Under the pieces are notes generated by a model. The model was not told the origin of the DNA. It saw only the letters and a list, made by a program, of their open reading frames with translations, and searched no databases. A DNA stretch of 64,000 bases. It comes from an uncultured Prevotellaceae bacterium. GTDB lineage: Bacteria; Bacteroidota; Bacteroidia; Bacteroidales; Muribaculaceae. Below, piece after piece: positions 2,111-26,100 of this stretch. The stretch covers positions 1 through 64,000 of the forward strand of contig CAMVAP010000004.1 of NCBI GenBank assembly GCA_947165485.1, read 5' to 3'. Within the stretch, counting starts at the first letter, position 1. Each line of letters opens with the position of its first letter. The position numbers and the translations under genes were made by a program.

Positions 2111-2266
2111 TGCATAATGCACCACGAGACAGTATGTCTAATTTTATTGACACATGGCCGAAAATCGCCGTGCAAATCCGCCGCCGACAGCCGACCGATT
2201 TGCACCGTGAAATGTCTTTTACTATCCCAGGCGACAGAGGTAATTTTGAACCAAAAATACGATACT

Positions 2267-6415: not shown

Positions 6416-6426
6416 AAAAAAATAAC

Positions 6427-6434
6427 TATCTTTG
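6427..6434 (+). promoter_or_regulatory. Bacteroidetes-type -7 element TATCTTTG upstream of cargo gene
   Basis: TAnnTTTG match 46 bp before the ATG at 6480; -33 element not clear. Confidence 0.45.
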
Positions 6435-6479
6435 CTGCAATTAATCTAATAGTTAGTTTTGTTCAATTGAATCAAGACA

Positions 6480-7961
6480 ATGAAGAAAATTACAATTTGT
6501 TTATGTATAGTATTCTGTTTCATATTGCTGTTTTCCTTTAAGGCTAACGCTCAACATGTGAGAGGTGATGTCAACCTAGACGGTCAGGTGAATATTTCTG
6601 ACGTAACAACTCTGATTGATTATCTATTGAGAGGAAAATGGGGAGATGAACCAGTGACTCCTGGAGGAACAGAATATGTTAATCTTGGTTTGCCAAGTGG
6701 CACGCTATGGGCGACAGTGAATATTGGAGCAAGCAGTCCCGAAGAGTATGGCTCTTACTTCGCCTGGGGTGAAACCTCTGCCAAAGATACCTATGATTTG
6801 AACAACTATAAATGGAGCAATAGCAGGAACAAGATGACAAAATACTGTACGTCCAGCAGCTACGGCACGGTTGATGACTTGACGGAACTTGATCCAGAAG
6901 ACGATGCCGCTTATGTGAACTGGGGGGGAGAGTGGCACATGCCAACCTTGGAACAGATGGAAGAACTAGTTGAAGAGTGCTATTGGGAAAGAACTACTTT
7001 AAATGGTGTTGAAGGCACTTTGGTGATTGGTTCGAAGGGGGCATCATTATTCTTGCCTGCTGCGGGCTATCAATTTGGCGGCTCCCTTGCTGAAGTGGGT
7101 ACGGGTGGCACCTATTGGTCACGTTCGCTATATACTAGTCGATCTGATTGTGCCCACTATATGTATTTCAATTCAAGTGGTGAGTACTGGGATTACAATG
7201 TTTTCCGCTATATAGGGCTTCCCGTCCGAGCTGTTCATGACTCTTATGAGGAACCGGATGGAGATACCGACAAAGATGGTCACGTAAACATCTCTGATGT
7301 AACGATGTTAATTGATTACTTGTTGAGTGGCAGATGGAGCGATGAGCCAGTAGAGGTAGAATTAGAACCAGAGTATGTTGACTTGGGTCTCCCAAGCGGC
7401 ACATTATGGGCAAAATGGAATATCGGTGCAACGAACTTAAATAGACACGGCTCATTCTTTGCTTGGGGCGAGACCTCTCCATCCGAACGCTATGACTGGT
7501 ACTACTATAAATGGTGCAAAGGTAGCAATAACACACTGACTAAGTACTGTACCAATAGTGAATACGGCTACAATGGCTTTATCGATGGCAAAACAGAATT
7601 GGATCCCGAGGATGATGCAGCTTATGTGAACTGGGGACCATCTTGGCGCATTCCATCATTATCTCAATGGCAAGAGTTGTATGATAGATGTACTTGGGAA
7701 TGGACGGGTAGCAGTCAGAAGGTCACAGGGCCCAACGGTAATACTATATATTTGCCTGCGTCTGGATACTTTCAAGACTTCTGTTTAGGTAATGGAGAAA
7801 TAGGCTGTTATTGGACGAGTTCGCTCTACTACGCATATAACGACGCTTGCTATTTTGCTTATTACTGGAGCTTTGTAAAGGGAGACATTAACCCGAACGG
7901 AAACAGATTTCCCCGCTGTGCTGGGCTAAAAATCCGTGCTGTTCGTGCCTCTCAGAATTAG
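6480..7961 (+). CDS. Secreted protein with two dockerin-like + FISUMP-type (Fibrobacter succinogenes paralogous domain) repeats
   Basis: Signal peptide MKKITICLCIVFCFILLFSFKANAQ; GDVNLDGQVNISDVTTLIDYLL and DKDGHVNISDVTMLIDYLL; two copies of YV(N/D)LGLPSGTLWA...FAWGET...AYVNWG... Confidence 0.8.
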   Translation: MKKITICLCIVFCFILLFSFKANAQHVRGDVNLDGQVNISDVTTLIDYLLRGKWGDEPVTPGGTEYVNLGLPSGTLWATVNIGASSPEEYGSYFAWGETSAKDTYDLNNYKWSNSRNKMTKYCTSSSYGTVDDLTELDPEDDAAYVNWGGEWHMPTLEQMEELVEECYWERTTLNGVEGTLVIGSKGASLFLPAAGYQFGGSLAEVGTGGTYWSRSLYTSRSDCAHYMYFNSSGEYWDYNVFRYIGLPVRAVHDSYEEPDGDTDKDGHVNISDVTMLIDYLLSGRWSDEPVEVELEPEYVDLGLPSGTLWAKWNIGATNLNRHGSFFAWGETSPSERYDWYYYKWCKGSNNTLTKYCTNSEYGYNGFIDGKTELDPEDDAAYVNWGPSWRIPSLSQWQELYDRCTWEWTGSSQKVTGPNGNTIYLPASGYFQDFCLGNGEIGCYWTSSLYYAYNDACYFAYYWSFVKGDINPNGNRFPRCAGLKIRAVRASQN

Positions 7962-7987
7962 AGTTTCAACGTCTTTTCACAGCATAC

Positions 7988-8024
7988 GCGGTTGATTTAC
8001 CTTTGCATTAAGTAAATCAACCGC
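7988..8024 (+). terminator. 13-bp perfect inverted repeat hairpin (terminator or operator)
   Basis: GCGGTTGATTTAC-CTTTGCATTAA-GTAAATCAACCGC followed by TATTTTA; a TACCTTTG -7-like box (7998-8005) overlaps it. Confidence 0.6.
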
Positions 8025-8030
8025 TATTTT

Positions 8031-9992
8031 ATGATACTCACGATAAACGGAAAGCAGGCAGCGCTGAAGAAGGGGTCTTCGATAGAATATGTATCGGAGA
8101 ACCGCATCTTCACCGACGCCGACGACTACTCCATGGAGATTGAACTGCCCCTGGCCGACTGTCACCAGAACCTCGACATCTTCGGCATGATCACCCGAAA
8201 AGACGTCGACACGGGCGACATCTTCTTTGATGCCGTGCTCCAGGACACCAACTTCTTCAAGCGAGGTGCCGTCGTGATCACCGGCATCACGCAGGAATCA
8301 GTCAAGGTGCAGTTCCTCGAGAAACGATCCTACCAGAACTTCTTCCCCCGCTTCGATGAGACCTACATCGACGAGCTCGACCTGGGCAAATGGCCCAACA
8401 CCTATCCCGACAACCTGCCCAATACGGGCGGAGCCCAACCACGGCCAGGTGAGGAATCGTCCTACGCCAGTCCCGCCGAACTGTGGGCACGGACGGACTA
8501 CACCGCCTTGCCCTGGGTGAACAACACCAGCGGCAACCTCCAGAACGCCGCCAGGTGGAACGCCAGTGCCAACAAGTACGAGTGGAAGGTCAACCCCGAC
8601 AACGATGAGGACACGGACTATTGCCGCGGGCTCTCGTTCCAGCCCAATCTTCTTTGGATAACCAGGAAGATCTGCGAGGCCCTGGGCTATGCCCACGACT
8701 TCTCGCTCTGGGAGAGCAGCGACTACCGCCACCTGTGGCTGATGAACACCACGCCATACGCCAACAGCAACCGCACATGGGCGAGTGCTTTGCCGCATTG
8801 GACGGTGAACGAGTTCTTCCAGGAACTGGAGAAACTCCTGCTCTGTGAGTTCGACATTGACCACGCCCGCAGCACGATAGCCTGCACTGCGACCGCGGAC
8901 AACATCGAGGCGGCGGGTGCCATCCACATCTCAAAGGTCGTGGACGCTTTCACCGTGGAGGTCACCACCGACGAGGAGAAGAGCGGCTACAAGGCGATGC
9001 TCAACCAGGGCTACGCCGCCGGCGGCCACCGCCTTGACAACATCTACAGCTGCCCGTGGTACCTTGAGCAGATGACACAGGCCGACGGCACGGTAAGGTG
9101 CCGCAGCTATGCCACCCTCAACGAGCTGCTCAACAGCAACGTCCGCCAGGAGGCCCTGCCCGACAGCGGAGGCTGCTGGGGCCTGCACTACGCCCAAGAC
9201 GTGGACACCTACTTCGTGCTGGAGGTGATGCAAAGGGTAAAATACCGCACGGGCGGGCGCGAGGAGTGGGACAACTGGGGCAACGTGACCCGGCTTGTCC
9301 CCATCAACCGCTTCGGCCCGCTGATCATCGACAAAGACCACCCCGACGACATCGACGAGATGAAGATAGTCCCTGCCTGGATCGATGAGACGGACGGCAC
9401 CATCGGCAACCTGGTGTTCCTCGAGTGCGGCGAGACGGGAGAGGGCGACAGCGCCTATTCCGACCAGACCCACACGGGCCGCCCCCGCTGGTCCGAGAAG
9501 GTGGACCAGGACGTGCCCATCCAGTGGGGAGCCCTGCCCACGGTCAGCGCAGGCAAGCGCGAGAAGAGCGGCGCCGTGTTCGACAAACTGTTTGTCGCCT
9601 ACTGGTGGGGCGACTACAGCCGCTTCGCCCCGAGGCTCCCGCATCCCTGGACCGACACCTTCGACGTGGACTACAGCTATTCGGCCCCCAATCCCAACAG
9701 CAACGCCGGGACGCTGCTGGTGACCTGGAAGCGCACCGACAGCGGCAAGGCCTGCTCGCTGCGCCTGAACAACGCCGCCTACGGCCAGGGCGTGGAGCGC
9801 CGCACCTACTATCCCGTCGACCAGAAGAAGAAATACACCTTCTCCTTCCTTGCCGACAAGATCCCCAACGTCCGCTCCCTGTTCCACATCGACGGCAAAC
9901 AGTACCTATGTGAAAAGATAACCGCGACATTCACCGAGGATGGAATGTCGCAGTTACTTCGCGGTACCTTCTTCAAGGTCGAGAAAGGGTAG
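8031..9992 (+). CDS. Phage tail-associated (distal tail/baseplate-like) protein
   Basis: 653 aa, same GC-rich codon style as the tape-measure gene, directly downstream in the tail module; family assigned by position, not by a known motif. Confidence 0.5.
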   Translation: MILTINGKQAALKKGSSIEYVSENRIFTDADDYSMEIELPLADCHQNLDIFGMITRKDVDTGDIFFDAVLQDTNFFKRGAVVITGITQESVKVQFLEKRSYQNFFPRFDETYIDELDLGKWPNTYPDNLPNTGGAQPRPGEESSYASPAELWARTDYTALPWVNNTSGNLQNAARWNASANKYEWKVNPDNDEDTDYCRGLSFQPNLLWITRKICEALGYAHDFSLWESSDYRHLWLMNTTPYANSNRTWASALPHWTVNEFFQELEKLLLCEFDIDHARSTIACTATADNIEAAGAIHISKVVDAFTVEVTTDEEKSGYKAMLNQGYAAGGHRLDNIYSCPWYLEQMTQADGTVRCRSYATLNELLNSNVRQEALPDSGGCWGLHYAQDVDTYFVLEVMQRVKYRTGGREEWDNWGNVTRLVPINRFGPLIIDKDHPDDIDEMKIVPAWIDETDGTIGNLVFLECGETGEGDSAYSDQTHTGRPRWSEKVDQDVPIQWGALPTVSAGKREKSGAVFDKLFVAYWWGDYSRFAPRLPHPWTDTFDVDYSYSAPNPNSNAGTLLVTWKRTDSGKACSLRLNNAAYGQGVERRTYYPVDQKKKYTFSFLADKIPNVRSLFHIDGKQYLCEKITATFTEDGMSQLLRGTFFKVEKG

Positions 9993-10000
9993 AGGAAAAA

Positions 10001-11212
10001 CTATGCATCTTCCTCAACGAGGGCACCCTTGAACTGCTTGGCCTCATCATGCACCTGCATGTTGTGCTCCTGGATGTAGCGGTTCGTCGTGCTCACGTCG
10101 CTGTGGCGAGCCTGGTCTCTGGCGACCACCACGCCCTCCTCGTTGGCCAGGTCACGAATTCCACTATCCTTCAAGGAATAGAACTGGTATTCGTCTCCCC
10201 AGCCCAGAGCTTCTCGCATCTTCTTCCATCTGCGGTTGTACTGGTCAGCGTTGCTGCGTTCAGCCGCAGGTCTGAAGTTCTTGCCGAACAAGAAGAAGGT
10301 TGCAGGCTTGGATAGCACACCAAGTTCGATCATCAGCTTGATGATGGTGTCGTTCAGTGCGACTTTGGCACTCTTCTTGTTCTTGCTGAAGTCCTCGCTC
10401 ACAAACACCGTCTTATCCTTTAGGCTGATGTCGCCCACTTTAAGGTAGGAGAGTTCCGTGGGACGTATAAATGTGAAGTACTCCATATAGCAGGCCAACA
10501 AGAAGAACTTGTCCTCTTTCTGAAGATGTCGTCGCATCTGCTGAAGCTTCGTGGGTGACAAATCCTTGCGGTGCTTCTTTTTCTCGTCCAGCGCCGGGAT
10601 GTGGTCAACGGGATTGGTTTCGATGTACTTGCGAGAAACGAGGAACTCTGCAAAGCTGTAGCACCAACCGCGATAGTTGTTCCTTGTGCGCTCGCTCACA
10701 CCTCGATCGAGGTAGAGCCAATCCAGATAGTCGTTGACAAACGCCCCGTCAAACTGATAGGCATACTTGATGGGAAGTACACATGAGGATAGATATTGGT
10801 TGAGGATGTTCACACGAGACTGGTAGGAATGCTTCGTTTTTGTCCTCGATTTCCGTTCGATATATTCCATGTACCGAGTAAGACAATCTGATAAAAATGT
10901 AAACCCACGGCTTTCTTGGGTATTTACCCATGGATTCCAACCGCTGCGTAATTTTTTCAATGTTATAGCGATTAGTTCAGCTGCATACTTGCGCCGTTCA
11001 CCAATTTTTTCGATGTTATCAATGTGATATTTCTTGCGCCTCATAGTCCCTGTCAAGGGATCGAGTGCAAAGAAATCTATAAACCATTTCTTTCCAGTAT
11101 GCAGCTTTGGATAGGTGAATCCAAGAAGTTCGGCTGCGCGATTTCTTTCTCTAAAAGACGACATTTTTTTAACATTTTTTGTCGGCTTTCTACCACTTCC
11201 AAAAAATGCCAA
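10001..11212 (-). CDS. Tyrosine recombinase/phage integrase
   Basis: 403 aa; SAM-like N-terminal core, catalytic-type motifs FIRPTELSYLKVGDI ... YSLKDSGIRDL ... ARHSDVSTTNRYI. Confidence 0.9.
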   Translation of the reverse strand: MAFFGSGRKPTKNVKKMSSFRERNRAAELLGFTYPKLHTGKKWFIDFFALDPLTGTMRRKKYHIDNIEKIGERRKYAAELIAITLKKLRSGWNPWVNTQESRGFTFLSDCLTRYMEYIERKSRTKTKHSYQSRVNILNQYLSSCVLPIKYAYQFDGAFVNDYLDWLYLDRGVSERTRNNYRGWCYSFAEFLVSRKYIETNPVDHIPALDEKKKHRKDLSPTKLQQMRRHLQKEDKFFLLACYMEYFTFIRPTELSYLKVGDISLKDKTVFVSEDFSKNKKSAKVALNDTIIKLMIELGVLSKPATFFLFGKNFRPAAERSNADQYNRRWKKMREALGWGDEYQFYSLKDSGIRDLANEEGVVVARDQARHSDVSTTNRYIQEHNMQVHDEAKQFKGALVEEDA

Positions 11213-11303: not shown

Positions 11304-11309
11304 ATTATG

Positions 11310-11396
11310 CGGAGAGGACAAGATTCGAACTTGCGGTAGAGTTACCCCTACGGCAGTTTAGCAAACTGCTGGTTTCAGCCACTCACCCACCTCTCC
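11310..11396 (-). tRNA. tRNA-Ser(GCU)
   Basis: Acceptor stem GGAGAGG/CCTCTCC, anticodon loop TTGCTAA (GCT), long variable arm, T-loop GTTCGAATC. Confidence 0.93.
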
Positions 11397-11622: not shown

Positions 11623-12492
11623 ATGGCAGACATCACAATTGCGGGCATCATGCGCGCAGGGGCATATTCGCCCAATCACATTGGCAATGACACGGCCATC
11701 TTCAATCTGGTGGCAGAGCAGCTGCGCAAACGCGGTTGCCAGGTCAATGTTTACAGTGAGGAACAATTCAACAAGCAAGAGATAGAGGAACCTGTTGTGC
11801 TGGCCATGTGCCGTGAGCGCGAGAGCATTGCCAAGCTGCAACGTCTTGAGGACGAGGGCAAGCTGGTGATCAACTCGGGTTACGGCATTGAGAATTGCAC
11901 GCGTGAGCGCATGACGCGCATCTTGCTGGGTAATGGCATACCTTATCCCGAGAGCCTCATTGTGAATACCAACGAGAACATCAAGAGTCAGTTGAAGAAG
12001 GCTGGCTTCAAGTCCTGCTGGATCAAGCGTGGCGATTTCCATGCGATGCACAAGGAGGATGTGAGCTATGTGCGTCATCCCGAGGAGGCCCAGGAAGTGC
12101 TTCAGGAGTATTTCTACCGTGGCATCACCCGTGCTGTGATCAATGTGCATCTGGTGGGTGATCTTGTGAAGTTCTATGGAGTGAAAGGCTCGCAGTTCTT
12201 CTACTGGTTCTACCCCTTTGACGAGGGACACAGCAAGTATGGCTGGGAGGAAGTAAATGGCCACAGCCAGGGAATCGACATTGACCTCAAGGAGTTGAAG
12301 GACATCTGTTCGCGTGCAGCCGAGGAGTTGAACGTCGTCATCTATGGCGGTGACTGCATTGTGGATCCCGACGGCACCATTCGTATTATTGACTTTAACG
12401 ACTGGCCCAGCTTTGCTCCCTGTCGCAACGAGTCGGCGCCCCACATTGCCAAGGCTGTGCTCGCGCAGGCCAAGGCGCATCTGGGACTTTAA
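11623..12492 (+). CDS. ATP-grasp-like enzyme (inositol-lipid locus associated)
   Basis: 289 aa; C-terminal ATP-grasp-like GGDCIVDPDGTIRIIDFNDWPSF; operonic with a CDP-alcohol phosphatidyltransferase. Confidence 0.7.
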   Translation: MADITIAGIMRAGAYSPNHIGNDTAIFNLVAEQLRKRGCQVNVYSEEQFNKQEIEEPVVLAMCRERESIAKLQRLEDEGKLVINSGYGIENCTRERMTRILLGNGIPYPESLIVNTNENIKSQLKKAGFKSCWIKRGDFHAMHKEDVSYVRHPEEAQEVLQEYFYRGITRAVINVHLVGDLVKFYGVKGSQFFYWFYPFDEGHSKYGWEEVNGHSQGIDIDLKELKDICSRAAEELNVVIYGGDCIVDPDGTIRIIDFNDWPSFAPCRNESAPHIAKAVLAQAKAHLGL

Positions 12493-12521
12493 TCATCAAC
12501 CGAAGCAAAACCACACAATAC

Positions 12522-13475
12522 ATGACATTAAAAGAAGAATATCAGGCATCGCTCAAGTCGTCGGACACCGAGGAGTGGTTTGACCTGCATTTTCACCGCC
12601 CCCTGGGTTTCTTGTGGGCGAAGTTTTTCGCCAAGTTAGGGGTAAGCCCCAATGCTATCACTATCGCGAGCATCTTTATGGGTGTTGCTGGTGGCATCAT
12701 GCTCTATTTCCATCAGCCGCATTTGGCCTGGCTCAATTGGGTGGGTATGTTACTCATCACGTGGGCCGACACGTTTGACAGCGCCGATGGTCAGCTAGCA
12801 CGTCTCACCCAGCAGTATTCACGCATGGGCCGTATCCTGGATGGTGTGAGTGGCGATTTCTGGTTTGCTGCGATCAGTTTTGCACTGGTGTTTAGGGAAC
12901 TGGATTTCGGTGACAGCTTGTTGGGCAACTATTTCTATAATCATCAATGGCAGATTTGGGCACTGGCTATCGCTTCGGGGGTGAGCCACGCCTTGCAGGC
13001 TGCCATGGCCGACTATTACCGTCAGTTCCACCTGTTCTTCCTCAAGGGTCAGCAGGGCAGTGAGCTTGATAACTCCAAGAAGCTGAACGAGCAGTATCGC
13101 CAGCTGGAGTGGGGTGCCAATTTCTGGAGCAAAATGCCCTTGTTCTTCTATCGCTTGTACACGAGAAATCAGGAGAACTGGACGCCTCAGATGCAGCGCT
13201 TGCGTGCAGCGCTCGATGAGCGCTATGGCGAGGACGGGGTGCCCTCACAGGACTTCCGTGACTACTTCCGCCAGCTCAGCCTGCCCTTGATGAAGTACAC
13301 CAATATCCTCACCTTCAACACCCGCATCATTGCTTGCTTTATTGCGGTGATCATCGACATGCCGTGGCTCTACTTCGCCTTTGAGGTCGTGGTGTTGAAC
13401 TTGCTGTTGATATACATGGTGATGCGACACGAGGGTATCTGCAAGAAGGCTCTGGATTACCTCAAGCGGCAATAA
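12522..13475 (+). CDS. CDP-alcohol phosphatidyltransferase family protein (candidate phosphatidylinositol-phosphate synthase)
   Basis: DSADGQLARLTQQYSRMGRILDGVSGD motif (variant of DxxDGxxAR x8 GxxxDxxxD), membrane segments. Confidence 0.8.
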   Translation: MTLKEEYQASLKSSDTEEWFDLHFHRPLGFLWAKFFAKLGVSPNAITIASIFMGVAGGIMLYFHQPHLAWLNWVGMLLITWADTFDSADGQLARLTQQYSRMGRILDGVSGDFWFAAISFALVFRELDFGDSLLGNYFYNHQWQIWALAIASGVSHALQAAMADYYRQFHLFFLKGQQGSELDNSKKLNEQYRQLEWGANFWSKMPLFFYRLYTRNQENWTPQMQRLRAALDERYGEDGVPSQDFRDYFRQLSLPLMKYTNILTFNTRIIACFIAVIIDMPWLYFAFEVVVLNLLLIYMVMRHEGICKKALDYLKRQ

Positions 13476-13499
13476 GATTCACTAAATACCTTTAATTTC

Positions 13500-15821
13500 A
13501 TGAGCAAGAAACTTAATCTTTTCGGCTTGATGCTAGCAGCTCTGGTAAGCATTCAAGCCTCTTCTGCTATACCCAGTGGCTACTACACGGGCGCACAGGG
13601 TAAGGGTAACCAGGCGTTGAAAACGGCTCTGCACAAGATCATCAAGGGGCACACCAAGCGTTCCTACCAGAACCTGTGGACCGATTTCAAGACGACCGAC
13701 TGTAATGGTAACATCATTATCGACCGTTACTCCACAACACAGTTCACTTATGACACTAACCAGTGTGGAACTTATAGTGGAGTAGGGGATTGCTACAACC
13801 GTGAGCACTCGATTCCCAACAGCTGGTGGGGCGGTTCGTCTTCGGATACTGCCTACACCGACCTGCATCACATGTTCCCTGTGGACGGATGGGTGAATTC
13901 TGAGCGCGGTAACCACCCCTTCGGTGACTGTGCCAATGGATCGGCCAGGGGAACGGGTAAGCTGGGCTCCTGCACCTTCAGCGGCTACAGTGGAACCGTG
14001 TTTGAAGTCGCTGATGAGTATAAGGGCGACTTTGCTCGCGTATATTTCTATTTTGCAACCCGCTACATGATGCGCATGAGCGACTATACTAGCGGAACGG
14101 GTAGTGTGGTGTTCACATCTTCTTCCTATCTGGGCTTGACAACATGGGCCATTAACCAGCTGCTGGAATGGCATCGCAATGACCCCGTGAGCACATTGGA
14201 AACCAGGCGCAATGATGCCGTGTATGGCATTCAGCACAACCGCAACCCCTTTGTTGACTATCCCGAACTGGTCGAGTACATCTGGGGCAACAAGAAGGGT
14301 AGCACGTGGACACCTGGCGGCGTTACTCCCACGCCAACTCCTGTCTTGACCTCTCCCGCCAGCGGCTCGACGGTAGATGTGGGCACCAATACGGGCAGTG
14401 GCGTGACCAAGACTATTACAGTCAAGGGCAGCGACTTGACCAAGGCACTGACCGTGAGTGTTAGCGGCAATGGCTTTACGGTTAGCCCGACAAGCATTAC
14501 CGCGACCAATGCCAATAATGGAACAACAGTAACCGTGACCTATAACGGCACATCGGCCAATGCAACGGGAACGTTGACAATCACCAGCACCGAGCTGACA
14601 ACTACCACAGTCAACCTGACGGCCAGCTACAACGCTGGCGGTAGTGTGGAACCTGGTGATGAAATTGTCGAGACCTGGGAAGGTATTTCGACCTATCAAT
14701 CCTATGCGACGTCTTTTATCCAGGGTCATGCTTTCAAGTGGAACACGTCCGACGTGGGAATCTGGAATACTGATACTCACAAGAATGACACGCAAAGTGT
14801 GCGATTTGGCAAGACGTCATCTTCCTATATAGCTATGGCCGAGGATGTCGCCGACGGCGCTTGCAAAATTTCTTTCTATGCAGCCAACTGGAGCTCCAGT
14901 GAGGCCGCTCCCACGCTGCTTGTACAGTATAGTACCAACGGTGGTAGCACGTGGACCAATGTGGGCACATGTTCACCTAACGCAACCTGGCAGCAGTACA
15001 GCTTTGACTTGAATGTGACGGGCAATGTGCGTTTCAAGATTGCTCAGACCGCTGGTGCCCGCCTCAACATTGATGACATTGCCATTACGGCCAATAATAG
15101 CGCACCCGCACCCAACCCCACCATCACTATCAATGCTCTCGATATGATTGAGGCCGAGCAGGGTGGCGAATCCACAATTGTCAGTGGCGCAGTGACTGCC
15201 GACAATAATGATGAGAATATTACCCTCACAGTGACCGGTAACTTCCAGATCAGTTTGAACAGGATGTCCTGGTCCACAACGTTGACGCTTGACCCCATGG
15301 GCGAGGTGTTCTATGTGCGCATGGCCAATACAGCCGTGAGTGGTGAGTTTGAAGGGACTATTCAAGCCAAGACCAGCATGGTTACTGCCTATGCCGACGT
15401 TGAAGGCATCGTGAACGAGAAAGCCGTCCTCATGGGCGACGTGAATTGCGACGGATCTGTGACTATCGCCGATGTTACGGTATTGATTGATTATTTGTTG
15501 AGTGGTAGTGTCGTTGGCGCATTTGATGAAGTAGCAGCCGATCTGAATCAAGATGGAAGCATTACCATCAGCGATGTTACCCAAATGATCGATGTGCTGC
15601 TAAGTGGTGGTCAGGCATCCATGGCCGCACGTGCATGGAATGCGGTGCCTGCAACTGGCGGAATCCAAGTTGAGAATCCCACTGGCGAGGCTCTCGAAGT
15701 CTATAACCTCAATGGCGAGTGTATGGTGATCATCACCACTGGCGACGTTAAGGTGTATCTTCCCGCTGGCACCTATATCGTTTCGGGTGACTATACTTCC
15801 CGCAAGGTGGTTGTTAAGTAA
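13500..15821 (+). CDS. Secreted endonuclease I family nuclease with Ig-like/jelly-roll, dockerin-like and T9SS-like C-terminal domains
   Basis: Signal peptide; endonuclease I motif YNREHSIPNSWWGG...DLHHMFPVDGWVNSERGNHPFG; GDVNCDGSVTIADVTVLIDYLL ... DLNQDGSITISDVTQMIDVLL; C-terminal EVYNLNGE...GTYIVSG..SRKVVVK. Confidence 0.85.
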   Translation: MSKKLNLFGLMLAALVSIQASSAIPSGYYTGAQGKGNQALKTALHKIIKGHTKRSYQNLWTDFKTTDCNGNIIIDRYSTTQFTYDTNQCGTYSGVGDCYNREHSIPNSWWGGSSSDTAYTDLHHMFPVDGWVNSERGNHPFGDCANGSARGTGKLGSCTFSGYSGTVFEVADEYKGDFARVYFYFATRYMMRMSDYTSGTGSVVFTSSSYLGLTTWAINQLLEWHRNDPVSTLETRRNDAVYGIQHNRNPFVDYPELVEYIWGNKKGSTWTPGGVTPTPTPVLTSPASGSTVDVGTNTGSGVTKTITVKGSDLTKALTVSVSGNGFTVSPTSITATNANNGTTVTVTYNGTSANATGTLTITSTELTTTTVNLTASYNAGGSVEPGDEIVETWEGISTYQSYATSFIQGHAFKWNTSDVGIWNTDTHKNDTQSVRFGKTSSSYIAMAEDVADGACKISFYAANWSSSEAAPTLLVQYSTNGGSTWTNVGTCSPNATWQQYSFDLNVTGNVRFKIAQTAGARLNIDDIAITANNSAPAPNPTITINALDMIEAEQGGESTIVSGAVTADNNDENITLTVTGNFQISLNRMSWSTTLTLDPMGEVFYVRMANTAVSGEFEGTIQAKTSMVTAYADVEGIVNEKAVLMGDVNCDGSVTIADVTVLIDYLLSGSVVGAFDEVAADLNQDGSITISDVTQMIDVLLSGGQASMAARAWNAVPATGGIQVENPTGEALEVYNLNGECMVIITTGDVKVYLPAGTYIVSGDYTSRKVVVK

Positions 15822-15886
15822 CTTATCACTTGACTATTCAATCTTATCAGACAAGAACGCAAGGGCGTAACCCTACACAAAACATT

Positions 15887-15922
15887 GACCGCATGGCTTT
15901 CGGGCCATGCGGTCACTGTTTT
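15887..15922 (+). terminator. Rho-independent terminator
   Basis: GACCGCATGGC-TTTCGG-GCCATGCGGTC hairpin followed by ACTGTTTT. Confidence 0.75.
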
Positions 15923-15955
15923 AAATGATTGTGTTGTGGAAAAATTTCCTGATTG

Positions 15956-18403
15956 TTAGCTGTTGATGGGCTTCTCGCGGTCCTTGGGCGTGTCATCAAT
16001 GTAATAACCACCACTGTCACCACCGTAGCCGTAACCATAGCCGTAACCGTAGCCATAACCATAGCCCTTACCATAGCCGTAAGCGTAGGAGTAGTTATAG
16101 CGGGTCTTGCTCACCTTGATGTCGTTGATGAGAATGGTCAGGTTCTTAATCTTCTTCTCATCGGACAGGCGCTCAAGCTCATACATGAACTGCTGCTCAA
16201 CCCTACCGTCGCGAACGACATAGATCGTGAGGTCGGCAAACCGGTTAACCACAGCCGCATCGGCGATTAGGTTATAGGGAACGGTATCGAGGATCACATA
16301 GTCATATTCCTTCTTGAGCTGTTCAATCATCTTGTTCATGTTTTCACTCAACAGCAATGAGGTGGGGTTGGGAGGAATGGCACCAACACTGATGATGTCA
16401 AAGCCGTCATGAAGTGCGCCACGGTGAATTACCTTGTTCAAGTCGGTCTCTTTGCCCGACAAGTAGGCCGATGCGCCACGACCGTCTTGAACGCCCACAT
16501 ATTCCGAGAACTTACCTTTGCGCAAGTCAAGATCGACAACAATCACCTTCTTGTTGACAAAGGTGTAGGCAAGTGCCAAGTTAACCGCAACAAAGCTCTT
16601 TCCTTCACCAGACATCGTCGAGGTGAACTGGATCACCGTTCCCTCGCCATCGGGTTGATTCTTATTGGTGACAAAGTCAAGGTTGCTGCGCACAATGCGG
16701 AATGCCTCGTTCATGCGGTCATTGGATGTCTCGTTGACAACGATCTCGCCTGTGACATTGTTCTTCTTGGCCGGCAACTCGCCCAGGATGGGAATGTCAC
16801 ACACCTCTTCTACCTCGCGGCGGGTGTGGATGGTCTTGTCGAGCGAGAAGTACCAGAATACTGCATAGAGGATAAAGGCAGGAATCAACAAGCCGATCAC
16901 CAGTCCGGTCAGCACGATACGTGACAACGGAGCGGTGATGGGACCGTAGTTGGGGATGGCAGGCTCCATGACTTTGGCGTTGGGCTCGGTGATAGCCATC
17001 TGCAAGGCGTTCTCCTCACGCTTGTTGAGCAGGTAGAGGTAGAGCTGTTCCTTGATCTTCTGCTGACGGGTCACCTCGGTGATGGCTTTCTCGTGAGCGG
17101 GATTGGCTGCCATGCTGCTCTGGGCCTGGCTCTGGCGGCGCTGTGCCTGACCTTGTCGAGTGCGCAGTGTGCCCAGGTAATTGTCAAGACTCGCAAGGAT
17201 GGTCTTCTTCTGCTGGGCCAGTGATGTGCTCAACTCTTTCATGACAGGGTTCTCGGCACTGGATGTGGCCGAAATCTTCTGGTAATCCTGCATGGCCGTG
17301 TTGTACTGGGAAATCTGAGATGATATGCCCACATTACTCATGCCGTTATTGACGGGGATGAGGTCGCCAGGACCCATGCCTGCAATATAATTTCGTAACT
17401 GGTTGGACAAGTTGATCTCCAGACTTAAATCCTGGTTGTTGTCAATCTGTCGCATGTTATAAGATTCGCTACCCAGCATCAACGAGTTGGCCGAGTTGGC
17501 AGTCAGGATGGCCACTTCATTGTCCACGCCGCTAAGGTCCTTGGACAAGTCAGCCACACGTTCAGCGATAAAGGCTTCGGTGCTGCGTGCCACCTGGTTC
17601 ATGTCGTTGATACCTTCCTGGTTATAGGCGACAACCAGTGTATTCAGGACATCGGCAATCATCTCGGGATTTTCACCTCTGATGGCCAGGTTATACACGT
17701 CACTGTGTTGGCTGGCAGGCTCAACAACCATCTGTGAGCTCAATGACCTTGCCACCGACGACGGGTTGAGCACACGCACGATGATGTTGTAATCGATGTG
17801 AGAATCGTTAAATTCCTTGGTCTTGGTGATAGCAACAGGACCATAATCGGTATTCACCTTGTTGCCAAAGTGAGCCTTCTTCCACTGTCCTTCGTTGACC
17901 TTGAATTCAAAGCTGTCGGCACTCTTGGGAACAATAGTCAGGTTGAAGCCGCTAGTCACCTCCTTGAGGGGAGTCACTTGAACCGGGGTCTTCTTGTAAA
18001 TGTTCACATCGCGCAGGAACATGTGTCCATAGTACTGAACATTGAGGCCCAGCGAGTTCACAACAACCTCCATTACCCTTGACGATTTGAGCTTGAACTG
18101 CTCGTTAGGGATATAGGTTGCAGTGTTGAGTCCAAGGTCACTGAAGGTCATCGACGGTGTGCCTTGAGAACTGTCCTTGGACCTGATAAGGATTGACGAT
18201 TTGGCAATATAATACTGAGGTCGGGATTTACCGAAGAGGTATGACAAACTGGCGCAGACGATCATCGACAGGACAAACCAGTACCAGTTATAAGCACAAG
18301 CCATGAAAAGCCTATCCCACTTGATACCATTGCGCACGCGTTTCTTCTTCTTCTCCTGGGCCATCGCTTTTGCGACCAGGTCTTCTTGAATTATTTGTTG
18401 CAT
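15956..18403 (-). CDS. wzc-like: Wzc/GumC-CpsD-type polysaccharide co-polymerase with tyrosine kinase domain
   Basis: 815 aa; Walker A-like TSTMSGEGKSFVAVNLA, Walker A' VVDLDLRKGK, YDYVILDTVP; tyrosine-rich C-terminal tail (YGYGYGYGYG). Confidence 0.9.
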   Translation of the reverse strand: MQQIIQEDLVAKAMAQEKKKKRVRNGIKWDRLFMACAYNWYWFVLSMIVCASLSYLFGKSRPQYYIAKSSILIRSKDSSQGTPSMTFSDLGLNTATYIPNEQFKLKSSRVMEVVVNSLGLNVQYYGHMFLRDVNIYKKTPVQVTPLKEVTSGFNLTIVPKSADSFEFKVNEGQWKKAHFGNKVNTDYGPVAITKTKEFNDSHIDYNIIVRVLNPSSVARSLSSQMVVEPASQHSDVYNLAIRGENPEMIADVLNTLVVAYNQEGINDMNQVARSTEAFIAERVADLSKDLSGVDNEVAILTANSANSLMLGSESYNMRQIDNNQDLSLEINLSNQLRNYIAGMGPGDLIPVNNGMSNVGISSQISQYNTAMQDYQKISATSSAENPVMKELSTSLAQQKKTILASLDNYLGTLRTRQGQAQRRQSQAQSSMAANPAHEKAITEVTRQQKIKEQLYLYLLNKREENALQMAITEPNAKVMEPAIPNYGPITAPLSRIVLTGLVIGLLIPAFILYAVFWYFSLDKTIHTRREVEEVCDIPILGELPAKKNNVTGEIVVNETSNDRMNEAFRIVRSNLDFVTNKNQPDGEGTVIQFTSTMSGEGKSFVAVNLALAYTFVNKKVIVVDLDLRKGKFSEYVGVQDGRGASAYLSGKETDLNKVIHRGALHDGFDIISVGAIPPNPTSLLLSENMNKMIEQLKKEYDYVILDTVPYNLIADAAVVNRFADLTIYVVRDGRVEQQFMYELERLSDEKKIKNLTILINDIKVSKTRYNYSYAYGYGKGYGYGYGYGYGYGYGGDSGGYYIDDTPKDREKPINS

Positions 18404-18484
18404 GATAAACTAATTTTGTTCACATTTCATCTCTTGAATGGCAATAATCAACCAGTATAATTGTCGATACTGCATAATTCGCTG

Positions 18485-18492
18485 CAAAATTA
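18485..18492 (-). promoter_or_regulatory. Bacteroidetes -7 element (TAATTTTG on minus)
   Basis: CAAAATTA on + strand, 81 bp upstream of wzc-like start, CAA near -33 distance. Confidence 0.4.
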
Positions 18493-18583
18493 GTGTAATT
18501 AGATGGAATCAACAAGCGAAATTTTGATAAAAATATATTGTGGATAAATAAATGCCAGTTAAAAACTGTTGTGCACCGTGAAA

Positions 18584-18624
18584 CTAAAAAAGGGGTGAAT
18601 ACGTTTTACCGTATTCACCCCTTT
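18584..18624 (-). terminator. Rho-independent terminator after myo-inositol-phosphate synthase
   Basis: 15-bp perfect stem AAAGGGGTGAATACG/CGTATTCACCCCTTT, T-run on minus strand. Confidence 0.8.
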
Positions 18625-18644
18625 AATCGGTTGCTGGCGGGTGA

Positions 18645-19952
18645 TTAATCAATCTCCTCGTCGGCCTCATAACCGCCCATCTCGCGGATGGCGTTCTTCA
18701 GCATCACATACTGCTGGAACAGGTGGTTAACGGGAATCTCATCCTTGGTGTAGTCGTGCATCGGGCTCTTGAGGAAGAAGCTCAAGAAGCGCTGGGTGCC
18801 ATAGCGGCCGGCACGGTGAGCAAGATCCATGAGCAGACACAGGTCAAGGCACAACGGAGCTGCGAGGATAGAGTCGCGGCACAGGAAGTTGATCTTGATC
18901 TGCATGGGATAGCCCATCCAGCCAAAGATGTCGATGTTGTCCCAACCCTCCTTATTATCGTTGCGGGGAGGATAGTAGTTGATGCGCACCTTGTGGTAGT
19001 AGTTGCTGTACAGGTCGGGCTGATTGTCGGCAACGAGAATTGACTCAAGGGTCGAGAGCTTGCTCACCTCCTTGGTGCGGAAGTTGGCGGGTTCGTCGAG
19101 CACGAGGCCGTCACGGTTGCCCAGGATGTTGGTCGAGAACCAGCCATTCAGACCGAGCATACGGGTGCCGATGATGGGAGCAAAACCGCTCTTAACCAGC
19201 GTCTGGCCAGTCTTGAAGTCCTTACCGGCGATGGGCAATTGGGTCTTCTCAGAGAGTTCCCACATGGCGGGGATGTCAACAGTGGTATTGGGAGCACCCA
19301 TGATGAAGGGGCAGCCCTCCATGAGAGCTGCATAGGCGTAGCACATCGAGGGAGCAACCTTGTCAACAACGTTGTCCTTCATGGCCTGCTCAAGGGCGGC
19401 AATGGTGCCATGGTATTTCATGTCGGGCTCAACATAGATCTCGGTCGAAGCTGCCCACAGAACTACAACGCGGTCAACACCGGTCTCCTTCTTGAAGTTG
19501 CGGATATCCTCACGCACTTGCTCGGTCATGTCCCAGCGGTCCTTGCACTGCTTCACGTTGTCACCATCGAGGCGCTTTGCATAGTTCTTGTCAAAGGCGG
19601 CCTTCAGCGGCTTGATCTTCAACAGCTCGTCCTTAACGGGCTCAATGTCCTTCTCCTTGAGTACCTCGGCATTGATGGCACTCTCATAAGCATTGACGGG
19701 ATATACGTCCCATGCTGCAAACACGAGGTCGTCGAGGCTGGGCATCGACACGATCTCATTATAGTGCAAATACTTCTTGTTCTCGCCTTTTCCTACGCGA
19801 ATCTTGTCATACTGTGTCATGCTGCCGACGGGCTTTGCAAGACCCTTGCGAGCCATCATCACACCAGTCATGAACGTGGTGCTCACGGCACCCAATCCTA
19901 CTACCATAATACCTAACTTGCCGGTAGCGGGCTTAACGATTTCTTTTGCCAT
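18645..19952 (-). CDS. ino1: Inositol-3-phosphate synthase (MIPS)
   Basis: 435 aa; GLGAVSTTFMTGV N-terminal NAD-binding, NTTVDIPAMWELSEKTQLPIAGKDFKTGQTLVKS, LNGWFSTNILGNRDG, NIDIFGWMGYPMQIKINFLCRDSILAAPL. Confidence 0.92.
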   Translation of the reverse strand: MAKEIVKPATGKLGIMVVGLGAVSTTFMTGVMMARKGLAKPVGSMTQYDKIRVGKGENKKYLHYNEIVSMPSLDDLVFAAWDVYPVNAYESAINAEVLKEKDIEPVKDELLKIKPLKAAFDKNYAKRLDGDNVKQCKDRWDMTEQVREDIRNFKKETGVDRVVVLWAASTEIYVEPDMKYHGTIAALEQAMKDNVVDKVAPSMCYAYAALMEGCPFIMGAPNTTVDIPAMWELSEKTQLPIAGKDFKTGQTLVKSGFAPIIGTRMLGLNGWFSTNILGNRDGLVLDEPANFRTKEVSKLSTLESILVADNQPDLYSNYYHKVRINYYPPRNDNKEGWDNIDIFGWMGYPMQIKINFLCRDSILAAPLCLDLCLLMDLAHRAGRYGTQRFLSFFLKSPMHDYTKDEIPVNHLFQQYVMLKNAIREMGGYEADEEID

Positions 19953-20308
19953 AATTGTTTATTACAGTTAATGTTTATGTTGATTTCAACTTTTGTTGTT
20001 TTGTCGCCTTTTGGCGGCTCGTGTTTTGCGCATGAGACCATACTCGTGCGAAAAACGGCGCTAAATTACAGCCTTTTTTTGAATTGAAAAACCAAATGTA
20101 TTGTAAAAATAGTTCAAAAAAGTTAAAACTTAGCCGAAAAATATAATAAATGTAAATTTCTGCCTTTATGGGCTGCGAATGCTTAAAAAACCTTAATGCT
20201 ACCTCGCTGCTTTTTGACGTTTTTAACACCTTTTTCTTCCTCAATTGGTGTGGGGAATAGCTCTGCTAACATTTTTTTGATTTTCTACAAGTAGAATTGG
20301 ATTTGTTG

Positions 20309-21013
20309 TCAGCTTTTTGATTGCAGGAACGTCTCGGCGGTAATGATGTCCTCGGCATGATCCACATCAACGATCTTGTCAATGCTGTAGGCATACAGCC
20401 GCTGGTGCGCCTCGACCAGTGCGCGCTGGAAATTCCTCATGCGGCTGTTGCCGGCTTGGATGCACTGTTCCAGGATGGGAAATGCTTTCTCGGTCATGGC
20501 ATACACACCGCCCGACACATATTGGGCTCCTTCCCATGACTTGTCACGGAAGGCTGTGATGTTCATGTCCTGGTCCACATCGACCCACAACGGCTTCTCG
20601 TCGTCAACAAATGGGGTGACGGCCCACATTCCATCGTGGTCATCGTCGTTTTCAAACGCTTCGATATACCCCTTGAAGTCCACCTCGTGAAAGATGGTGT
20701 CAACGGTCGTGAGGCAGAACTTGCCCTTGGGAATCACCTCGCTCAAGTGCCACAGGCTGTGCATCGAGCTGGGTGTGGTCTTTACCACAAGGTTTAAGGG
20801 AACGGGCAACTTCAAGTTCTCAAGGTATTCTCTCACCTCGCTCATGTGCTCGTTGACGATGATGCTGATGCTCTCGGCATTGCACCTGAGCATGATGTTG
20901 ATCAGTCTCCCGATCATGGGCTCCCCTTGCAGTTCTACCAGGGGCTTGGGCTTGGCGACACCTTCTTGGGCCAGGCGTGCGCCATTGCCAGCTGCTATAA
21001 TTGCATAATTCAT
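20309..21013 (-). CDS. NTP transferase family protein (sugar/polyol-phosphate nucleotidyltransferase)
   Basis: AIIAAGNGARLAQEGVAKPKPLVELQGEPMI signature. Confidence 0.85.
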   Translation of the reverse strand: MNYAIIAAGNGARLAQEGVAKPKPLVELQGEPMIGRLINIMLRCNAESISIIVNEHMSEVREYLENLKLPVPLNLVVKTTPSSMHSLWHLSEVIPKGKFCLTTVDTIFHEVDFKGYIEAFENDDDHDGMWAVTPFVDDEKPLWVDVDQDMNITAFRDKSWEGAQYVSGGVYAMTEKAFPILEQCIQAGNSRMRNFQRALVEAHQRLYAYSIDKIVDVDHAEDIITAETFLQSKS

Positions 21014-21038
21014 TATTATATATAATGTGTTAAAGTGG

Positions 21039-21740
21039 CTATAACTGATGGATCCAATCCAGCACCTCGGCGATGGTTTTGATGGTGTGGGGGTGCGTTT
21101 GCTGATCCTCTTCTTGAGTCCAGCCTTTGCCCTTGAGCCATAACGCTTGGCAACCCAGCTGCTCGGCGGGGGCGATATCCTTGCGCAGGCTGTCGCCTAT
21201 CACGAGCACCTGTTCAGCCGGCAGCTCCAGAGCATCAACACCCAGCTTGAACAGGGTGGGGTTGGGCTTTCTGATACCAACGACCGCACTCTCGATGATG
21301 CCTTTGAACATATCTCTGATGCCATAGCCGCGCAGCACCTCATCGATGTTGCCATAGAAGTTGCTCACCAGCATCATGGGGTATTGCTCTTTCAATGCTT
21401 CAAGCGTGGGGCGCGCTTCCTCGATGCACTGGCGGGCGGCTTGATCGCAATATCCCGCGATAGTCTCCACCCATTGCTGGCGGGTGTCGGCGTTGTAGCT
21501 CTCGGGGAGGTATTCTAGCTCAAGTGCGACCTTCTTGCGCAGCAGGGTGTGGAAGTCATCCTGGGGCAGGATAATGCGCTCGCGCGCCAGGGCGCGTTCT
21601 CCTTCCACATAGGCTGTCCGGAAGGTCTCCTTGTCGATGGGTACCAGAGCCTGCTGATAGCCTTGCCACAGCACCTCGCTCCAGTGTACGCCGCGGCTGT
21701 CTAGTGTGCCGCCGTAATCAAAAATGATTCCTTTAATCAT
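21039..21740 (-). CDS. HAD family hydrolase
   Basis: IIFDYGGTLDSRG, LVSNFYGN, RKPNPTLFKLG..VLVIGDSLRKDIAPA. Confidence 0.88.
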   Translation of the reverse strand: MIKGIIFDYGGTLDSRGVHWSEVLWQGYQQALVPIDKETFRTAYVEGERALARERIILPQDDFHTLLRKKVALELEYLPESYNADTRQQWVETIAGYCDQAARQCIEEARPTLEALKEQYPMMLVSNFYGNIDEVLRGYGIRDMFKGIIESAVVGIRKPNPTLFKLGVDALELPAEQVLVIGDSLRKDIAPAEQLGCQALWLKGKGWTQEEDQQTHPHTIKTIAEVLDWIHQL

Positions 21741-21780: not shown

Positions 21781-22884
21781 TCAATCCTCCTTGGTGAGAT
21801 CCAGTTTCACGTTGTCGCGGCCTCGGTCCTGGAACAACTTGGGCAGTGGGTTCTCCCTCGATTGGTCATATCGGATGCGGTTGCGGTAGATGTCAATAGC
21901 TGTGTAGATGGCATGGCGCATCGAGGCCTCGTTGGCGCATCCCTGCCCAGCAATGTCATATCCCGTGCCGTGGTCAGGACTGGTGCGCACGATGGGTAAG
22001 CCGGCTGTGAAGTTCACGCCCTCGTCCATCGCAATGGTCTTGAACGGAGCCAGACCTTGGTCGTGATACATGGCCAATACACCGTCAAAGCGGCGGTAAT
22101 GGCGGGCTCCAAAGAAACCGTCTGCCGCATAGGGGCCAAAGCACTGGATGCCCTCTTGGTCAAGCGCTTGCAACATGGCTGGCTTGATAATCTCGTGTTC
22201 CTCGCTGCCCAGAATGCCGTTCTCACCGGCGTGAGGGTTGAGCGACAGGACAGCAATGCGGGGACCGTCAATGTTGAAGTCTCGTTTCAGGGAATTATTG
22301 AGAAGGCGCAATTTCTCTCTGATGCCGTCGATAGTGAGGGCGCTGGGCACTTGTGATAACGGCAGGTGGGCTGTGACGAGGGCAATGCGCAAGTTTTCGG
22401 TACACATGAGCATGAGCGCCTTGTTGCCATCTCCTGCCGCACTCTCCAGATACTCGGTGTGACCAGGAAACTGGAATTGTTCACTCTGGATGTTGTCTTT
22501 GTTGATGGGGGCGGTGACAAGTACATCGATCAGACCGGTTTTCAAGTCCCTGACGGCTGCCTCGATGGCGGTAAATGCGGCAAGGCCTGCCTGCTTGCTG
22601 GCTTGACCCAACTCGATCTTGATGTCCTGGTCGATGCATTCCACCAGATTGGGCATATTCTCCTTCAAGTGCTCGGCACTCTTGGTGTAGTTCATCTGAA
22701 CACCAGGCAGGTTGCAGGCGTTCTTGTGATAGTTCATGATCTTGCTGGAGCCGTAGATGACTGGGATGATCATTTCCAGCATCTCGGGAACGCCTATGGC
22801 TTTCAATATTACCTCAGGGCCTATGCCATTGGTGTCGCCAATGGTGATACCCACCTTCAATCGTTTCTTATTGTCTTCACTCAT
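21781..22884 (-). CDS. pdxA: 4-hydroxythreonine-4-phosphate dehydrogenase
   Basis: VGITIGDTNGIGPEVILK; FPGHTEYLE; LNPHAGENG.LGSEE; YHDQGLAPFK; VRTSPDHGTGYDIAG. Confidence 0.95.
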   Translation of the reverse strand: MSEDNKKRLKVGITIGDTNGIGPEVILKAIGVPEMLEMIIPVIYGSSKIMNYHKNACNLPGVQMNYTKSAEHLKENMPNLVECIDQDIKIELGQASKQAGLAAFTAIEAAVRDLKTGLIDVLVTAPINKDNIQSEQFQFPGHTEYLESAAGDGNKALMLMCTENLRIALVTAHLPLSQVPSALTIDGIREKLRLLNNSLKRDFNIDGPRIAVLSLNPHAGENGILGSEEHEIIKPAMLQALDQEGIQCFGPYAADGFFGARHYRRFDGVLAMYHDQGLAPFKTIAMDEGVNFTAGLPIVRTSPDHGTGYDIAGQGCANEASMRHAIYTAIDIYRNRIRYDQSRENPLPKLFQDRGRDNVKLDLTKED

Positions 22885-23119: not shown

Positions 23120-26100
23120 TTATGGCCTCATGACTTTCTCGGTTTGGGTTGTGCCGTCGCTCATCTGGCGCACAATGATGTTCATTCCGCTGATGGGCTC
23201 GCTGTGCTCCATGCCGCTGGCATCGTAGTACCGCTCGCTCACGACTGTGACATCTCCCAGCCCGTCGATGGTTGTCTCTTCAACATCGGTGGGCGTGCCA
23301 GGGGGATACCAGGCAAGGCCAAAGCTAGACCCTCCTTCATCGTCCCTTGACACGCTGGGGCGACCATCGTTGTACAGATATTCCACATAGTTGCGATCGT
23401 CATTCATATACTTGATCACGGCTACAGTTCCATAGATCGTACTCAAGTCCAGTTGCAGATTTTCGCTCGGATTCACGTTTACCCTGCTGGGCGCACCGCT
23501 GGGTGTGCTGCCGGGTTTAACGCGAGTGCCGTGGTAAGGTCCTGACGCGTTGACGGTGAATTTCAGAACCTTGTCAGGGTTAAAGCCGTCGGCTTCAAGC
23601 TCCCTTTGATAGGGTGGCGTGCTGGAAGCGGTCTCGATGGAGTCTTGGCCGCTCTTGCTGCCCAAGAATGTGTTGTAGTTGGCAGGTTGAGAGGGTAAAG
23701 CGTCGCCAGCATTCTTCTTGAGCTGGAAGTAGTACATGTTGTGTTGGGTGGTTACACCGTTCTCGGTTGTATTCCATGAGGCTAGCTCTCCTGGAATCAA
23801 CCCCCTCACGTTGTGGGTGCAATTGTAATGAACGAGATCCTCGTTGCTACCGCGAGGCGGGAGGCTCGTGCAACCGCTCAAGTCGATACCGTTGATGTGG
23901 TTGTAACTGTAGGTGAGCGTGTGCAGGCCTGCATTGTTGTTCAAGCCCTTCAGGCTATACAGGTCATTATTGTCGGCACGAACCACCTTCAGCGATTTGC
24001 TGCCAAAGTTTAAGTCGGCAATGCTGTTCTTACCAGGCTGGCTCATGCTGGTGGGCACTTGCCTGGGCATGGTAAATCCATAGTTGTCAAAGGCGGTCCA
24101 TTCTGCTTGGATGCTGTCCATGTTACTGCAATCAAAATAGACAAGCTGCGTGTTCTGGCTCACGTCCAGATTGCGGATCATGCAATTGCGCAGGTCAAAG
24201 TACCTCAACCCCGTGTTTGAAGTGACATTAAGCTCTTGTAAAACAGGATTTTGCCAGATCTTAAGCGTGTCAAGGTGCTCGGCAGCCTGATTGGTGAACT
24301 TCTGCAAGTTGGAGTTAGATACCCACGCAGTCACCAGATTCACGTTCTCTTTCAAGTCCATACCATTGCTGCCAAGGGCATCACCCAGCGCCTTGTCATT
24401 GTAAGCATGAAGGTACTTGAGATTGTCATTCATGTGCAAATCCAACTCGTTAAAGATGAGATTGTCGTTGACCCAAACAAGATTCAGCGAGTCGGCATCC
24501 ACTGTTGGGTATCCAAATTGGCTATCTAGCGCCAAATTGTAGGCAAGGTTGTCAAGCCCACTGATTTTTGGTAGTTTCGGGTCGTGATGGCAATAGACAT
24601 CCCTCAAACCGTTGCAGTTGTCCAGCAGAACGGTAGCCAGTTTCTCGCGATTGTAAGCTCGTACTCCCCGCAGTCCACTCCATGGCGTTGTCAAGTTGCC
24701 TGTATAAACTCCTCCTTCACGGGCGCCGTTCATAGTGATTGTTTTTTCCCTTGTCTCTGTTACGCCCGTGTCATAATTCGTATATTGATATCTCTGTCGT
24801 ACAGAGGCTGGGATGGCAACAGTGTTGCCTGTTTCAGGGTCATAGCCGCGCTGTTTGAAAGCGCAGGCCCTTGCATCAATATATTTGATGCTGTCAACTG
24901 TCTGGACATTGATATAGTGAAGAGGGTTGCCAGTAATGATGATAGTGTCAATCTTAGAGGCATAGAAACCAATGGAGTCGAAGTCGGAATAGGACAGGTT
25001 GATGTAATGCAGTTTTTTACACCTTGTATCGATTGCAAAGTTAATGGAACCTTGCATGGTGGTCACATCGGCACCTCGCATGCCAATTGCGGACAATCGT
25101 TCCAGGGATCGGAGTCCAGGAGTCAAGATCTGCCCATCGGTTTTCTTCTTACCGTTTTGTGAACCAATTCCCATTGAGCGCATACCGTTATAGTCGGCGT
25201 AGAAGTATTTGAGTTCAGGCAAATCCTGAATCCAGATAAACCTGGCATTAGAAACATGGCAATGGGTGAGCGCCGTTTGCTCGATACCTGTATAGCTGAT
25301 GTCTAGATATTCTAACTTGTTGTTATCCAAGAGGTCGAGGATGTAGAGACCGGTGGTGTCGTTGTAGTCCATCGTGTAGTATTCCTGATCGTAGCTCTCC
25401 TGCCTGCCGGGATATTTGGGAGTCGTGTCGATGAGCCAGAGGTATTTCTTGTAGTCGGGATAAGAAGTGGAGGTGTGGCCACTATTAATGTGGGCCCTCA
25501 AACCTGCTCCTTTGTCTTGTGAAGAGGTGTAACGTGTTATAGTGCGGTTGTGGCTCACGTCCAGATAGCGCAATTCTGTGTTCTTGTGAAGATAAACAGA
25601 GTCCTTGAGGTTGCAGTGGCTCAAATCAAGGTATTTAAGTCCAGTCAAGTGCTCAAGTGACGCGCTGTCAGGCTGTGCTGGTGATGTTGGCCAATAGGCG
25701 TAGTAATAATATTGCAGACTTGGTACAGTGCTGGAGAAGTCATAAACACCAGAGTTCTTGTTCCATCTCTCGTATTTGCCACCTGCGACTGTCGTCTGGT
25801 TCCTGAAGGTATAGAACTTGTTGTAGCTGGCCTTGATGGTGTCGATGGGCACACCGTTGAGCGACCCGTTGTTGCCGATGCGCTGGAAATAGTTAGGCTG
25901 GTCGGCTGTGCCGCTAATGTCCATATAGTGCAAAGCTGTATTGCCCAACAGATACAAGCCGCTGCCTTCACTCATCACAGTGTCGGCAGCCATAGTAGTG
26001 ATGCCTGGGTTATTGTGCATCTCAAGTCGCTCTAGGCTCGGAGTCTTTCCTATCATGAGCGCCGTCAGACTGCCGGGGAGGGTAGGAGCATTGAAAGTGG

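Follow-up and report, generated by a model that had tools for sequence, protein, structure and literature searches.

The analyzed window is the complete stretch of 64,000 nucleotides of contig CAMVAP010000004.1. It contains two groups of putative inositol-lipid genes, between which the genes of a nuclease and a Wzc-like protein are located. The features are as follows:

11309-11396, minus strand: tRNA-Ser(GCT), found with ARAGORN
11623-12492, plus strand: ATP-grasp enzyme without a Pfam family, regularly encoded in the company of MIPS and other inositol-lipid genes
12522-13475, plus strand: CDP-alcohol phosphotransferase (CDPAP) of the alternative cluster, 317 aa, PF01066
13500-15821, plus strand: secreted Endonuclease I-type nuclease with a dockerin-like stretch (Pfam)
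15956-18403, minus strand: Wzc-like co-polymerase/tyrosine autokinase, TIGR01007
18645-19952, minus strand: myo-inositol-phosphate synthase (MIPS), PF07994
20309-21013, minus strand: nucleotidyltransferase (NTP), a putative inositol-phosphate cytidylyltransferase (Pfam/NCBIfam)
21039-21740, minus strand: HAD-family enzyme of the alternative cluster with motif I DYGGT (Pfam/NCBIfam)
21781-22884, minus strand: PdxA, whose gene normally lies directly upstream of the intact operon

The seven genes from ATP-grasp to HAD are all intact ORFs with the expected domains, located at the positions and on the strands given in a preliminary description of this DNA. Pfam analysis detected the CDP-alcohol phosphotransferase domain (PF01066, 3.7e-10) and the Endonuclease I domain of the nuclease (1.8e-65); MIPS matched PF07994 (7e-100), and the Wzc-type tyrosine autokinase matched TIGR01007 (135 bits, cut-off 108). 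In the whole genome, which is 92% complete, only one MIPS and one CDP-alcohol phosphotransferase were found. A second PF01066 enzyme is present in nearly all relatives, and its lack here may be an assembly gap. The nuclease probably stands outside the inositol-lipid pathway; it adjoins the ATPgrasp-CDPAP pair only in part of the clade with the split arrangement described below. In addition, the interval between the nuclease and Wzc (15822-15955) does not contain Ugd (UDP-glucose 6-dehydrogenase), which is found there in most split relatives. Positions 1-11212 hold part of a prophage, with a tape measure protein and an integrase, next to tRNA-Ser(GCT); in four relatives, G007, G017, G020, and G040, integrases adjoin this tRNA as well. 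On the other side, PdxA is adjoined by a 1496-aa secreted-looking leucine-rich-repeat protein (23120-27610), homologues of which also occur near PdxA in the loci L003, L005, and L007.

Two gene clusters for inositol lipids are described by Heaver et al. 2022 (PMC9246714), namely, BT_1522/23/25 with MIPS, and an alternative cluster with an NTP transferase, a CDP-alcohol phosphotransferase, and a HAD enzyme near MIPS. The alternative cluster, represented in B. vulgatus by BVU_RS13095 (NTP), 13105 (Ptrans), and 13115 (HAD), is presented there as a putative, unconfirmed pathway. Its MIPS, NTP transferase, CDP-alcohol phosphotransferase, and HAD are shared by the window. The preliminary assignment of the genes to an inositol-lipid gene set is borne out, but their likening to the BT_1522-BT_1526 locus is not. 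At 1e-20, no match to the BT_1523-type PIP synthase was found in the window's genome, and the BT_1522-type AUR1-like PI-dihydroceramide synthase (NF052609) gave no match in this 92% complete assembly; the BT-type PI-dihydroceramide synthase was likewise not found in 59 of the 61 genomes of the genus. The window shares MIPS and the predicted class of the end product with the BT_1522-BT_1526 locus, whereas its MIPS has no adjoining PIP synthase, PgpA-type phosphatase, or AUR1-like synthase. The preliminary description asked for the PIP phosphatase to be identified, naming HAD as a candidate and noting that no PgpA-like gene is seen; the alternative pathway as proposed has no PIP intermediate, which makes the search for a PgpA-like enzyme unnecessary.

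In the window, apparent orthologues of the genes of the Phocaeicola sartorii cluster (L032), with 45-84% identity to it, lie within a span of about 11 kb, though split. In L032, the order is pdxA-NTP-ATPgrasp-CDPAP-LPGsynthase-HAD-...-MIPS. This order agrees with the locus-tag spacing in B. vulgatus, which supports the assignment of the window set to the alternative cluster. From the same comparison, we infer that the ATP-grasp gene corresponds to BVU_RS13100; the text of PMC9246714 makes no mention of an ATP-grasp gene in this place between NTP and CDPAP. The order pdxA-NTP-ATPgrasp-CDPAP-HAD-MIPS is found again throughout Muribaculaceae and in other families, in most cases lacking the LPG synthase. 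The window differs from the B. vulgatus cluster in that its set forms two groups and HAD precedes NTP. We regard it as probable that the inositol-lipid genes of the window are the alternative set (of the Bacteroides vulgatus/Prevotella type), which a single event in the ancestor of one sub-clade of a Muribaculaceae genus split into two transcription groups and which has been working since. The separation seen here shows that clustering of CDPAP with NTP and MIPS is not required, and this counts against such a reading.

The bifunctional IPCT/DIPPS of archaea (model NF041135) is matched by NTP in one half (1.5e-10) and by CDPAP in the other (3e-4); NTP resembles the N-terminal half. The archaeal IPCT/DIPPS (4mnd, NF041135) and AF2299 (4o6m) likewise combine a cytidylyltransferase with a CDP-alcohol phosphotransferase and use inositol. 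In contrast to them, the window encodes two separate proteins with low similarity and without the fourth Asp of the CDP-alcohol phosphotransferase signature.

CDPAP belongs to this superfamily according to Pfam and fold, and it contains seven of the eight residues of the signature DxxDGxxAR...GxxxDxxxD. The part D86xxD89GxxAR..G103xxxD107 is invariant in 35 sequences. The site of the fourth Asp is occupied by Gly111, also invariant in the 35 sequences, and Asp112 follows in most of them. The shifted GD form was found in 106 of 113 CDPAP matches across loci (some genomes counted twice); the exceptions are sequences with Glu or Asn instead of Asp after Gly, found in some MIPS-linked relatives, one shifted sequence without GD, one truncated sequence, and one distant paralogue with the canonical form. 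CDPAP also retains the nucleotide motif P(D/N)xx(T/S), as P43-N44..T47. In the predicted model (pLDDT 91), the closest fold is AF2299, with PIP synthases among the next neighbours. The Gly111 pattern and the AF2299-like model fit an acceptor other than inositol phosphate. Judging by conservation, the invariant His156 is a candidate replacement base. In a PIP synthase, the change of the fourth Asp to Asn nearly abolished activity (PMC4634129), and the residue after this Asp in PIP synthases is reported to be always positively charged, Lys or Arg (PMC6506517). The lack of the fourth Asp in CDPAP counts against the alternative-set reading, as do the relatives with Glu or Asn after the Gly.

These data bear on a different reading, in which CDPAP would be a PIP synthase acting on CDP-DAG and inositol phosphate, HAD would be the PIP phosphatase, and NTP would serve something else. 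The PIP synthases that follow AF2299 among the structural neighbours are consistent with it, as is the frequent position of HAD directly downstream of CDPAP, with an overlap of 14-17 bp in L068, L053, and L082. We nevertheless consider it improbable, given the low scores of CDPAP with PIP synthase models (34.8 bits against a cut-off of 170, and 30.6 bits against a cut-off of 350 for the BT_1523 model). In addition, both the fourth Asp and the subsequent Lys/Arg are missing, whereas the Asp is canonical in all 13 of the BT-type PIP synthases seen, and NTP belongs to nearly every alternative cluster.

Motif I of the HAD enzyme is an invariant DYGGT, in which Gly10 replaces the second Asp, and the phosphatase motif DxDx[TV] is therefore absent, although Pfam places the protein in the HAD superfamily. 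The second Asp of motif I is usual in this family, and its lack also counts against the alternative-set reading. In intact operons, the HAD gene accompanies CDPAP; in the split clade, it stays with NTP. The data speak neither for nor against a role of HAD as a PIP phosphatase or a PI-dihydroceramide synthase.

The identity, linkage, orthology, order history, and selection of these genes are shown here, and a route for the alternative set can be proposed. MIPS would convert glucose 6-phosphate to inositol 3-phosphate, from which the nucleotidyltransferase would form CDP-inositol. The membrane enzyme CDPAP would transfer phosphoinositol to diacylglycerol or dihydroceramide, and the HAD enzyme may work next to this transfer step. 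The ATP-grasp enzyme would modify or supply an inositol compound, intermediate or product, that the two known pathways share. As for the lipid backbone, a different contig of the genome carries the gene for a serine palmitoyltransferase of the Bacteroidota type (NF047600, 649.9 bits, cut-off 640; PDB matches 3a2b/8guh, about 1e-146), which makes a sphingolipid acceptor plausible.

The ATP-grasp gene (11623-12492) had no Pfam family match and only remote RimK/MptN matches in NCBIfam; these matches and the fold of the predicted model identify its product as an ATP-grasp protein. Its profile matched 17 of 149 Bacteroidales genomes, across 13 families. All 17 carriers possess MIPS, which is found in 23 of the 149 genomes overall (Fisher 1e-17, ignoring relatedness). 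The alternative CDPAP adjoins the ATP-grasp gene in 16 of the 17 carriers. In the remaining one (G199, locus L175), the gene adjoins those for a BT-type PIP synthase and an AUR1-like protein, and the alternative CDPAP gave no match at 1e-20; L055 and L080 have this arrangement within the locus. These data show that the ATP-grasp gene is a regular partner of inositol-lipid genes in the relatives, and its presence with both pathway types argues that the enzyme acts on an intermediate or a product that the two have in common. A scheme in which ATP-grasp adds a phosphate and HAD removes it was rejected, since the BT-type loci L175, L055, and L080 keep ATP-grasp without HAD or NTP.

Two readings of the enzyme itself were weighed. 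According to profile analysis, its best PDB match is the Entamoeba inositol-phosphate kinase ITPK (1z2n, 2.6e-5), further ITPK matches being weak. In addition, the invariant D257-x-N259-xx-P-S-F resembles the D-x-N-xx-P-S-[YF] of ITPK, whereas PsnB and ArgX show E-x-N at the aligned position. An ITPK-kind inositol-phosphate kinase acting on the MIPS product would agree with the use of inositol 3-phosphate by eukaryotic ITPK1 (PMC12077091). This reading appears unlikely, as the Foldseek search with the predicted model (pLDDT 90) ranked the ligases Ddl, PsnB, ArgX, and RimK at the top and no ITPK in the top 50, the Pfam ITPK model PF05770 matched one of 37 ATP-grasp members (E 0.18), and the inositol lipids of B. 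thetaiotaomicron come from a cluster without a described ATP-grasp enzyme. The sequence and fold evidence disagree, and ITPK membership was not accepted. Classical ITPK (PF05770) gave no match in 297 Bacteroidota genomes, in a search where the controls were silent too.

The same fold neighbours point to a ligase of the carboxylate-amine/hydroxyl type that would decorate the inositol head group or the lipid. The retention of ATP-grasp where BT-type enzymes replace the CDP-inositol-type ones (L175, L055, and L080) is what would be expected for a shared substrate or product. However, the motif is D-x-N rather than E-x-N, no aminoacyl donor was identified, and we know of no lipid of this kind in these bacteria; a ligase is therefore a possibility that we hold with considerable reserve.

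We tentatively propose, at slightly less than even chances, that a new ATP-grasp family takes part in Bacteroidales inositol-lipid synthesis of both pathway types and makes a modified inositol lipid or an inositol phosphate so far unseen in these bacteria, and that CDPAP is active without its supposedly essential Asp. Fitness in the host is influenced by the inositol lipids of gut bacteria. The alternative pathway has so far been predicted only; the ATP-grasp gene offers a concrete new enzyme candidate in this synthesis, and the Gly-for-Asp change in CDPAP poses a sharp mechanistic question.

Some loci, Muribaculaceae operons among them, hold genes of both pathways. In L068, L053, and L082, a BT-type cassette (PgpA-GtrA-PIPS-AUR1-acyltransferase) is located between ATP-grasp and CDPAP within one operon; L068 (1793-11293) also carries NTP and pdxA, and its PgpA was called as a tblastn match. 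In two genomes of the window's genus, G003 and G014, an AUR1-type gene lies beside the alternative cluster. All five loci are possible intermediates of pathway exchange. Operons of this mixed kind point to a way in which the pathways could be swapped for each other, and an exchange of this kind may explain the mismatch between pathway type and species tree.

The history of the split was analyzed with tblastn maps of loci. Among named genomes, relatives of MIPS were found mostly in MAGs of the Muribaculaceae type from rumen and gut. The window comes from a rumen bacterium related to Muribaculaceae, and its genus is probably Sodaliphilus, one neighbour being named Candidatus Sodaliphilus. Within the genus, 61 genomes were mapped, which are draft MAGs of varying completeness in which absences can be gaps. 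The intact state is pdxA-NTP-ATPgrasp-CDPAP-HAD-MIPS; the split state is pdxA-HAD-NTP, with MIPS-Wzc-Ugd, and a separate ATPgrasp-CDPAP pair. In a tree of six concatenated proteins (pathway genes and PdxA), all 24 labelled split genomes grouped together (support 1.0), as a clade surrounded by intact members of the genus. Four further genomes with partial loci contained the split-type pair. The rearrangement suggested in the preliminary description is therefore confirmed as a derived split of single origin, and the synteny comparison called for there places the interrupted order in one sub-clade instead of the whole family. The nuclease and Wzc do lie between the two gene groups, as described, but their simple insertion into the operon is ruled out by the gene order of relatives, which indicates relocation of the ATPgrasp-CDPAP pair and a change in the order of HAD and NTP.

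The pair adjoins the nuclease and the MIPS group in eight split genomes, including that of the window, and is located elsewhere in the others. Since the same adjacency recurs in these eight sampled genomes, the separation of the genes is not an assembly accident. Of the 28 split ATP-grasp loci, 15 have tRNA-Ser(GCT) next to the pair. In close pairs, dN/dS was about 0.01-0.1 for every pathway gene, the moved ones included, with ATP-grasp constrained as much as MIPS; such low values mean strong purifying selection on all parts and indicate that no decay of the pathway followed the split. TAnnTTTG -7-like motifs, identified by consensus match only, are located 5' of ATP-grasp, MIPS, Wzc, and PdxA.

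Wzc is located 3' of MIPS on the same strand, at 140-379 bp, in 24 of 24 split genomes of the genus and in 6 of 22 intact ones. Its occurrence in intact relatives too makes this adjacency older than the split, and the link with polysaccharide export that the preliminary description read from the split was not created by it. Loss of MIPS changes capsule gene expression in B. thetaiotaomicron (PMC9246714), and a functional tie between MIPS or inositol lipids and Wzc or the capsule is possible. A stronger version, in which the split would be an active co-option of the inositol genes for capsule synthesis through a functional Wzc link, could draw on this expression change, on the same-strand neighbourhood in every split genome, and on the large capsule-type locus at 28-64 kb. 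It seems very improbable to us, as the adjacency predates the split and is missing from most intact relatives, separate promoter-like -7 motifs precede Wzc and MIPS, and the argument is one from proximity alone. The capsule-type polysaccharide locus itself (28192-64000) is a large same-strand array that contains genes for glycosyltransferases, a pyruvyl transferase, an EpsG-type polymerase, acyltransferases, an AMP-binding enzyme, KAS III, and DegT.
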